A stretch of DNA of 64,000 nt. Origin: Myxococcales bacterium (GTDB taxonomy: Bacteria; Myxococcota; Myxococcia; Myxococcales; JAJYLH01). The position numbers were made by a program, and so were the translations under genes. The notes beneath the pieces are model-generated. The model saw only the letters and a list, made by a program, of their open reading frames with translations. It ran no database searches and was not told the origin of the DNA. This document shows positions 60,985 to 64,000 of the stretch, in pieces. The stretch is taken from contig JAJYLH010000002.1 of assembly GCA_021787845.1 (NCBI GenBank), positions 62,001 through 126,000 of the forward strand, in the 5' to 3' direction. Position 1 is the stretch's first letter. Every line of letters starts with the position of its first letter.

Positions 60985-61415
60985 GTCGCCTTCGTCTGGC
61001 GCGGGCTTTCGCCCGCAACCCAAGCTCGACCCGGGAAACGATCGGGATCGTGGCACGGGAGTCCTTGCCCATGAGCGCTTGGCGACTCGCCATCCCGCCG
61101 GATCCGGCTCACCTTTCACGGGCGAGGACGCCCATGCCACGAAGTCTTGCTGCGTGGCGTCGAGAACCTGCGCGGCGCAAGCCTTTCGCGGCGTAGCCCG
61201 TACGATGGGCTCCGTCTCACTTCACCGATCCTACGACTTGGGTTGCGCGCGAAAGCCTGCCTTCGATGCGACAGGAAACCTGAGCCCGTAGGAATGGGTG
61301 GAGCGCAGCGAAACCCATCATCGCAGTGCCCATCGATGGGTTCCGCTCTGCTCTACCCATCCAACGACTTGGGTTGCGCGCGAAAGCCTGCCTTTAATGC
61401 GACAGGAAACCTGAG
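60985..61415. repeat. Repeat cluster upstream of the AmmeMemoRadiSam locus
   Basis: 61049-61141 is an inverted repeat (GTGGCACGGGAGTCCTTGCC facing GGGCGAGGACGCCCATGCCA) related to 54841-54906. 61233-61284 and 61364-61415 are 52-bp direct repeats (ACGACTTGGGTTGCGCGCG at the start) differing at two bases. Between them is an 80-bp palindrome (61287-61366) of the GGGTGGAGCG family. CGGGCTTTCGCCCGCAACCC near 60998 is an inverse relative of the direct repeat. No gene lies in 60979-61564. Confidence 0.8.
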
Positions 61416-61564: not shown

Positions 61565-62599
61565 TTGTCGGCGCTTTCATCCATCTCGAGCGAGTTGCGC
61601 CTCTTGTCGCCAGGCAGGAGGCGTCCCGTCCTCCGCTGCGACCTGTGCCCGAAGGGGTGCGTGCTCCACGAGGGCCAGCGCGGCGAGTGCCGTATCCGCG
61701 TCTACCTCGACGGCGCCATCCGCGCGGTGACCTACGGCCTGCCGAGCGCCATCCACCTCGACCCGGTCGAGAAGAAGCCGTTCTATCACTTCCATCCCGC
61801 GCGCCAGGCGTTCTCGGTCGCCACCGCCGGCTGCAATCTCCACTGCGCGAACTGCCAGAACTGGACGCTCTCCCAGGCGAATCCGGAATCGCTGGACAAC
61901 ACTCCGCTCTCTCCCGACGAGCTCGTCACCGCCGCCCAGCGCATGGGCGCGCCGATGATCGCCTTCACCTACTCGGAACCGCTGGTGTTCTACGAGTACA
62001 CGCTCGACGGGAGCCGCGCCGCCCGGCAGGCAGGCATCGACCCGCTGCTCGTCTCCGCCGGCTACGCCAATCCGGGCCCGGTGCGCGAGCTGTTCAAGGT
62101 CATCTCCGCCGCGACCATCGACGTGAAGGCGTTCGACGACGGCTTCTATCGCAAGGTCTGCAAGGCCAGCTTGAAGCCGGTGTTGAACACGCTCGTCCTC
62201 GCGAAAGAGGCGGGCATCTGGCTCGAAGTGTCGACCCTGGTGATCCCGACGCTCAACGATTCGCCGGCGATGTTCACGCCGCTCGCCAAGTGGATCGTCT
62301 CGAACCTCGGGAAGGACACGCCGCTACACCTGCTGCGCTACTACCCGCAATACCGGCTGCAGAACCTGCCGCCGACGCCCGCCTCGACCCTCCGGAACCT
62401 CGCCGACGAGGCGCACGCCGCCGGGCTCCACTACGTCTACATCGGCAACGTCGAGGGCGACCCCGCGAGCGACACCCGCTGCCCGCACTGCGGCACCGTT
62501 CTCGTCCGGCGGGTCGGCTACGTCGTCCTCCGCGACCTCCTCGGCCGCGACGGCAAGTGCCCGAACTGCGGCACCGTCATCGCCGGAGTGTGGTCGTGA
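61565..62599 (+). CDS. amrS: AmmeMemoRadiSam system radical SAM enzyme
   Basis: About 344 residues. The radical SAM cluster motif CNLHCANC binds [4Fe-4S]; before it lies CDLCPKGCVLHEGQRGECRIR, typical of this family, and at the C terminus a zinc ribbon (CPHCG and CPNCG). FTYSEPLVFYEYTLDG and IDVKAFDDGFYRKVC are family strings. Together with Memo and AMMECR1 homologues it forms the AmmeMemoRadiSam set, whose reaction was long undefined. TTG 61565 with GGGAG upstream is preferred; the frame stays open back to TTG 61496. No export signal, so cytosolic. Confidence 0.92.
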   Translation: MSALSSISSELRLLSPGRRRPVLRCDLCPKGCVLHEGQRGECRIRVYLDGAIRAVTYGLPSAIHLDPVEKKPFYHFHPARQAFSVATAGCNLHCANCQNWTLSQANPESLDNTPLSPDELVTAAQRMGAPMIAFTYSEPLVFYEYTLDGSRAARQAGIDPLLVSAGYANPGPVRELFKVISAATIDVKAFDDGFYRKVCKASLKPVLNTLVLAKEAGIWLEVSTLVIPTLNDSPAMFTPLAKWIVSNLGKDTPLHLLRYYPQYRLQNLPPTPASTLRNLADEAHAAGLHYVYIGNVEGDPASDTRCPHCGTVLVRRVGYVVLRDLLGRDGKCPNCGTVIAGVWS

Positions 62600-62781
62600 C
62601 CCGCCGCGACTGGCTCGCCGGGGCCGCGGCGCTCGCGCTCTCCGCGGCGCTCACCGGTTGCGAGCCCCGGCGCGGCGACCCGATGCGCGCTGCGCCGCCG
62701 AATCTGATGGCGCTCCTGCGCGCGCGCTCGCGGCCGTTCGACTTGCATCACGTGGCCCCCGGAACCGCTCTCGCTGGATAG
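62596..62781 (+). CDS. Tiny Tat-type lipoprotein between amrS and the Memo fusion
   Basis: 61 residues from a GTG at 62596, which overlaps the amrS stop (GTGA). The N terminus TRRDWLAGAAALALSAALTGC combines twin arginines with a lipobox, suggesting Tat export and lipid attachment. The mature part is about 40 residues, basic (MALLRARSRPFDLHHVAPG), without recognised domains. Its coupling to amrS and position before the amrB-like gene imply co-expression. Tat usage suggests that it leaves the cytosol folded or with a cofactor, which is inference. Confidence 0.65.
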   Translation: MTRRDWLAGAAALALSAALTGCEPRRGDPMRAAPPNLMALLRARSRPFDLHHVAPGTALAG

Positions 62782-62790
62782 GAACGCTTC

Positions 62791-64000
62791 ATGACCCGCC
62801 GCCTCCTCTTGACGCTGCTGCTCATCGGCACCGCCTGCACCCACCACAAGCGCACGAGCCCAGCCATGCCTCAGACCCCGACCGCCGACGCGAAGACCGC
62901 CACCACGCCTCCGCCCGCGAAGCTCCGCCCGGTGCGGTTCGCGGGCACCTGGTACCCGGCGAATCCTACCGACCTCGGCGCCATCCTCGACGCCGACCTC
63001 GCGCGGGCCAAGCCGGACAAGAGCGGTGAGCCTGTCCTCGCGGTCGTCAGCCCCCACCCCGGCATCCAGTACGGCGGCGAGGTGGCCGGCACCGCTATCG
63101 GCACCCTGCGCGGCCACGGCATCGAGCGCGTCTTCCTCATCGGGCCGTCGCACACGATGTACTACCGCGGCATCGCGCTGCCGCCCGACTGGAGCGGGTA
63201 CGCGACGCCCGTCGGCGACCTCCCCATCGATCGCGCGGCAGTCGACGCCCTGCGCGGCGCGCCCGGTTTTACGGGCCCGACGGTCGCGCAGGCGCCGGAG
63301 CACAGCCTGGAGATGGTCGCCATCTTCGTCGCGCGCGCTCTCCCGGGCGTGCGCATCGTGCCGCTCGTCGTCGGCGACCTCGGCTCCGAGGACCAGGTCC
63401 GCGCCGAAGCCGCGCGCATCGCCGCGCTCCTCCAGCCGACCGATGCCGTGGTCGTCAGCAGCGACTTCACCCACTACGGCCCGAGCTACCACTACGTGCC
63501 CTTCACGACCGACGTGCCGAAGCACTTGCAGGAGTACGCCGACGAGGCGACCGCCGCGCTCACCGCGGTCGACCTCGCGAAGTTCGACGAGCACCTCGAG
63601 AAGACGGGCGACGACATCTGTGGGCGGGAGGGCTTGCGCTTACTGATGGCGCTCCTGCCCCCCGGCGCGCACGGCGAGCGCGTCGCCTTCGACACGAGCG
63701 GCCGCGAGACCGGCGACTACACGAACTCCGTCAGCTATGTCGGCCTCGTCTTCCGCGCCAAGAGCCCCTGGACCGCGAAGGGCGCGCCGGAGGGCGGAGC
63801 GAAGATCGACATCATCCGCGGCTCGACCACGACCTCCACCTCCGCGCCGGCCGCCGAGCCGACGTTCGTCGAAGGCCCGGAGGTGCTGAACGCGAGCGAG
63901 CGAAACCTGGCGCTCCTCATCGCGCGGCGCAGCATCGGCCATTACCTCGCGCAAGGAACGCGGCCGGACGACAAGGTGCTCGAGGTGCCCGCGACGGGCG
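62791..64000 (+). CDS. amrB: Lipoprotein Memo (AmrB)-AMMECR1 (AmrA) fusion, cut at window end
   Basis: 403 codons are visible. MTRRLLLTLLLIGTAC is a lipoprotein leader, and a Pro/Thr linker follows. The Memo domain (about 48-330) has the family's metal-ligand positions: His in SPHPGIQYGG, His in GPSHTMYYRG, His in SSDFTHYGPSY, and Cys in DDICGREG. After a linker, LNASERNLALLIARRSIGHYL begins an AMMECR1 domain, which runs off the edge. Ordinary AmrB and AmrA are separate cytosolic proteins. Exported, fused forms beside a cytosolic AmrS are unusual. It starts nine bases after the small lipoprotein gene, in the same operon. Confidence 0.88.
   Translation, partial: MTRRLLLTLLLIGTACTHHKRTSPAMPQTPTADAKTATTPPPAKLRPVRFAGTWYPANPTDLGAILDADLARAKPDKSGEPVLAVVSPHPGIQYGGEVAGTAIGTLRGHGIERVFLIGPSHTMYYRGIALPPDWSGYATPVGDLPIDRAAVDALRGAPGFTGPTVAQAPEHSLEMVAIFVARALPGVRIVPLVVGDLGSEDQVRAEAARIAALLQPTDAVVVSSDFTHYGPSYHYVPFTTDVPKHLQEYADEATAALTAVDLAKFDEHLEKTGDDICGREGLRLLMALLPPGAHGERVAFDTSGRETGDYTNSVSYVGLVFRAKSPWTAKGAPEGGAKIDIIRGSTTTSTSAPAAEPTFVEGPEVLNASERNLALLIARRSIGHYLAQGTRPDDKVLEVPATG

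Follow-up and report, generated by a model that had tools for sequence, protein, structure and literature searches.

The stretch of DNA analysed here, hereafter the window, comprises 64,000 nucleotides of a 6.2-Mb Myxococcales genome (G000:C56:62001-126000) and ends in three genes on the forward strand. In 5' to 3' order these are a leaderless AmrS core, a 61-aa open reading frame (ORF) of the Tat type, and a Memo-AMMECR1 fusion with a lipoprotein leader. AmmeMemoRadiSam systems are widespread but of unknown function, and two of their domains, Memo and AMMECR1, have human homologues. They are usually pictured as cytosolic, a picture that does not hold here, given the predicted lipoprotein leader of Memo-AMMECR1. 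All three domains are present and adjacent, each above curated or Pfam cut-offs, and by these domains the locus is an AmmeMemoRadiSam system in an exported and split variant. As in the defined system (TIGR04335/04336/04337), the domains lie side by side, and both the metal-ligand positions of Memo and the cysteine motifs of AmrS are kept. Unlike in that system, Memo and AMMECR1 are fused and exported, AmrS lacks a leader and an N-terminal segment, and a small Tat protein and an FMN_bind/NapH-type membrane partner have been added.

The Memo-AMMECR1 fusion (62791..64000, + strand, continuing beyond the window) occupies a single open frame that runs from 62791 to the equivalent of 64458 and encodes 555 aa. 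Its Memo domain scored 156 bits against TIGR04336 (cut-off 26) and 145 bits in Pfam. The AMMECR1 domain, for whose confirmation the initial annotation had called for sequence beyond position 64000, was reached only by reading past the window edge and scored 170 bits in Pfam (cut-off 25); it is the only AMMECR1 domain in the genome. The leader, MTRRLLLTLLLIGTAC, contains a lipobox (Cys16), as expected for the lipoprotein that had been proposed. A more 3' start that removes the leader was ruled out, since it would reach into the linker that precedes Memo. Metal-ligand positions H89, H121, H228, and C277 of Memo align with human MEMO1 and are invariant in six exported proteins. A second Memo-domain ORF of approximately 430 aa occurs elsewhere in the genome (L009, G000:C56:267190-268002); it has an N-terminal extension, is without AMMECR1, and is apparently cytosolic.

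AmrS (61604..62599, + strand) was identified by a profile search with 350.6 bits against TIGR04337 (cut-off 220). The plausible start codons are TTG, at 61595 or 61604. Upstream of 61604, GC content by codon position in the AmrS frame was 0.69/0.71/0.69 and thus displayed no bias, indicating that no hidden in-frame leader precedes the gene and supporting the earlier view of this AmrS as leaderless. A Tat leader was not seen in another frame or further upstream either. Also missing is the N-terminal segment by which CxLCPxxC is preceded in other AmrS. Without this segment, the core was nonetheless predicted by AF2 to adopt a confident fold (pLDDT 94.4), and the closest solved fold is that of the peptide-bound pyruvate formate-lyase activase. 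No second AmrS copy above 1e-40 was found in the genome. The region upstream of AmrS is non-coding and contains two 82-nt direct repeats (61203-61284 and 61334-61415; 85% identical) and a 24-nt inverted arm (61001-61024).

The 61-aa ORF (62596..62781, + strand) starts with a GTG codon that overlaps the AmrS stop codon (GTGA). It encodes an RRDWL motif, a hydrophobic stretch, and the lipobox LTGC, and its GC content by codon position (0.79/0.65/0.87) is coding-like. The Tat-type lipoprotein gene that had been noted between AmrS and Memo-AMMECR1 was thereby corroborated. Against the generic Tat-signal model TIGR01409, the only curated family found for the small protein, it scored 15.6 bits, just under the cut-off of 16.7, and an orthologue reached 22.0 bits.

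Exported AmmeMemoRadiSam is a widespread second form of the system. AmrS itself carries a Tat leader in about 67 relatives from Bacteroidota, Desulfobacterota, Ignavibacteria, Planctomycetota, and Myxococcota-like genomes. Clear Tat leaders (e.g. MTSRRLFLKRC...) also occur in two genomes of the same order as the window (G014 and G002). A scan of named genomes yielded 80 loci, most of which encode an AmrS with a Tat leader at its N-terminus, then a linker (e.g. WKWSREADYY), and then CxLCPxxC; the scan was queried with Tat-AmrS sequences, and the share of all AmrS that is exported is not readable from this sample. Signals and Tat leaders in the survey were called by simple hydropathy and motif rules rather than by a trained predictor. 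The usual operon consists of a secreted Memo-AMMECR1, a spermidine-synthase-like polytopic membrane protein of 700–800 aa, and Tat-AmrS. Counted over loci at which both N-termini are readable, a Memo signal was present in 31 of 33 Tat-AmrS loci (counts 31, 2, 7, and 10; Fisher p 9e-5). Cytosolic AmrS start with ...HPARWWHxxxDGxxQCDLCP, and the membrane partner was absent in the loci seen. AF2 modelling of a fused AmrS gave a disordered Tat leader (residues 8–30) followed by the N-terminal segment (residues 31–50) in ordered form (pLDDT 87–97). No description of exported AmmeMemoRadiSam or of Tat-exported radical SAM enzymes was found in the open-access literature searched. The initial annotation had proposed a system split across the membrane; this finds no support, and in most relatives with secreted Memo-AMMECR1, AmrS carries its own Tat leader.

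Seven discordant loci with readable N-termini had a leaderless AmrS, and in five of them (the window, L142, L145, L151, and L164) a small Tat ORF directly follows AmrS. The same was observed at L171, where Memo lies off the contig. These split AmrS start just before CxLCP (e.g. MREVVCELCP), and their six cores formed one clade in a tree calculated without the leader (support 100/93). A further 35 split loci came from whole-genome searches, which covered the class to which L142 belongs (Magnetococcales) and the order of the gammaproteobacterial L151; with a subset of these, a split clade of 24 was recovered with a support of 99/96. In the midpoint-rooted core tree the split clade is sister to a large, mostly Tat-bearing group, and the cytosolic AmrS of the window's own phylum are positioned on the opposite side, where some Tat-AmrS are also placed. 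A Tat-type ORF of 40–100 aa located at most 12 nt from the AmrS stop codon occurred at 38 of 41 split loci versus none of 96 comparison loci with Tat-fused or cytosolic AmrS (Fisher 1e-30, uncorrected for common descent); such counts are not independent because the split arose once, as a single ancestral event that was kept. At the remaining split loci, the ORF lies at about +106 (L258) or a Tat-like frame is found approximately 260–290 nt downstream (L256 and L259). A Memo signal was predicted in 36 of the 37 split loci at which Memo was found. Four of five other split genomes that were checked also hold a cytosolic AmrS with an intact segment and no small Tat ORF behind it.

Most of the small proteins end like the tail consensus EADFYRPHDLAG, which is similar to the segment that precedes CxLCP in fused AmrS. 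An HMM of this segment scored at least 5 bits in 17 of 39 small proteins versus 5 of 2146 decoys. Conversely, 70 of 96 other AmrS retain the aromatic segment, versus 2 of 41 split AmrS. The window's own small protein gave no hit in a direct HMM search, and its C-anchored similarity to the AmrS segment is weak (rank 32 among 2146 decoys). Since this protein has diverged, it was assigned on the grounds of its position, clade membership, size, and Tat motif.

We consider it likely that the small protein represents the Tat leader and N-terminal segment that AmrS itself has lost, provided in trans by a gene downstream of the enzyme, and that AmrS is exported as a hitchhiker, so that the whole system would lie on one side of the membrane. 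Leader and segment would have come to be encoded separately, perhaps after a duplication in which each copy lost a part. In such a scheme, Memo-AMMECR1 would be secreted as a lipoprotein, and AmrS would fold and acquire its Fe-S clusters in the cytosol. The small Tat protein would bind AmrS, supplying the missing N-terminal segment together with the Tat signal, and the folded, cluster-loaded enzyme would be carried through the Tat translocon as a hitchhiker. TatC is present in the genome. Since the small protein has a lipobox in the window, it would anchor the AmrS complex to the membrane beside the lipidated Memo-AMMECR1. Several points count against this reading, among them the weak tail similarity and sub-threshold Tat score of the window's own small protein and the single origin of the split. 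In addition, two Bacteroidota loci (L132 and L157) combine a secreted Memo with an AmrS that has neither a leader nor a small Tat ORF behind it, no AmrS was found in three genomes with exported Memo-AMMECR1 (G001, G009, and G020), and an exported AmrS would need SAM outside the cytosol. That a radical SAM enzyme should be sent through Tat is surprising, given that both SAM and its reductants reside in the cytosol.

Among the alternatives, AmrS might stay in the cytosol with Memo-AMMECR1 outside and the small Tat lipoprotein acting as an independent fourth component, as had been suggested from the window. The missing leader of AmrS, the cytosolic location of SAM and low-potential reductant, and the loci L132 and L157 would all fit such an arrangement; we nevertheless regard it as unlikely, as fused relatives bear the Tat leader on AmrS itself and the small protein is encoded only where leader and segment were lost from AmrS, with a similar segment in most of its members. 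Slightly less probable still is a RiPP-like role, in which the small protein would be a substrate of AmrS and its EADFYRPHDLAG tail would be modified in the cytosol prior to Tat export. Enzyme-peptide pairs of this type are commonly arranged in the same way, with a radical SAM gene overlapped by a short ORF whose tail is conserved, and the solved fold closest to AmrS has a peptide bound, but both fused and cytosolic AmrS contain an ordered segment similar to this tail, and none of the 96 other AmrS loci has such an ORF. That the small ORF is spurious or the true AmrS start lies elsewhere is very improbable: short length, GTG start, and weak family similarity of the window ORF would allow it, but positional orthologues in several taxonomic groups, the coding-like codon-position bias, and the stop/start overlap all speak for a genuine gene.

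Directly downstream of Memo-AMMECR1, beyond the window, a polytopic protein of 1288 aa and an ApbE flavin transferase (252.6 bits) are encoded. The 1288-aa protein comprises a spermidine-synthase-like N-terminal part, an FMN_bind domain (45.8 bits), and a Fer4_5 region similar to NapH/NosR. Its FMN_bind domain contains the sequence DFITGAS, in accordance with the flavinylation rule D-x-x-[ST]-G-A-[ST] (PMC12052999). L145 and L151 likewise have the FMN/NapH part in fused form. FMN_bind/NapH was rejected as a trait common to the membrane partners, as both domains occurred in 3 of 60 cases and NapH alone in 2 more. In the window, the polytopic protein and ApbE probably bring electrons to the outside, and the FMN/NapH/ApbE module would supply them to the system. 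FMN_bind with its motif, the NapH/NosR-like Fer4_5 region, and the adjacent ApbE gene are shared with ApbE-flavinylated carriers such as NosR and RnfG (PMC8238504, PMC12052999). Unlike in these carriers, the FMN_bind and Fer4_5 parts are fused here to a spermidine-synthase-like polytopic domain beside AmmeMemoRadiSam. AMMECR1, Memo, and radical SAM are not mentioned in the main text of the flavinylation literature examined.

Tat hitchhiking is an established mechanism for [NiFe] hydrogenases and formate dehydrogenases (PMC10924467). Much as in those complexes, a signal-less Fe-S enzyme is encoded beside a partner bearing a putative Tat signal; in contrast to them, the partner here has only about 60 aa, is encoded downstream, and appears to be the enzyme's own detached N-terminus. 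If this holds true, a Tat leader and N-terminal segment provided by a separate downstream gene would represent a new way to build a Tat substrate, and the detached leader a natural two-piece test of export. The whole AmmeMemoRadiSam system of the window probably works outside the cytoplasm, and its chemistry is most likely a radical modification of an envelope substrate. The exported form with its fixed operon narrows the search for an AmmeMemoRadiSam substrate to the cell envelope. More tentatively, and with considerable doubt, we propose radical SAM chemistry outside the cytoplasm in which AmmeMemoRadiSam might operate on the outer face of the membrane, with SAM handled by the spermidine-synthase-like partner, electrons arriving via a flavinylated NosR-like carrier, and AmrS reassembled from two pieces before Tat export.

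Clustering of genes near the exported loci for other conserved partners returned mainly shadow ORFs of known genes and no shared functional partner. At L157 (7930-8885), a calcineurin-like metallophosphatase with an RR/lipobox leader is located between the secreted Memo-AMMECR1 and the leaderless AmrS, replacing the usual membrane partner. The fusion itself is split in G014 (L040 and L041), where a close Memo relative (70% identity) is exported and lacks AMMECR1, and another contig encodes an exported AMMECR1 behind Tat-AmrS. Exported Memo-AMMECR1 without an adjacent AmrS occurs in several genomes. At L081, L085, and L086, such lipoproteins are encoded directly downstream of two proteins of approximately 1,000–1,100 aa, several of which have lipoprotein leaders; the pair at L081 contains HYDIN/ASH-type Ig-like repeats. 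Orphan exported Memo-AMMECR1 lipoproteins were further observed at L042, next to a proline-dehydrogenase-like gene, and at L044, next to ATP synthase genes, the AMMECR1 part of the latter being degenerate.
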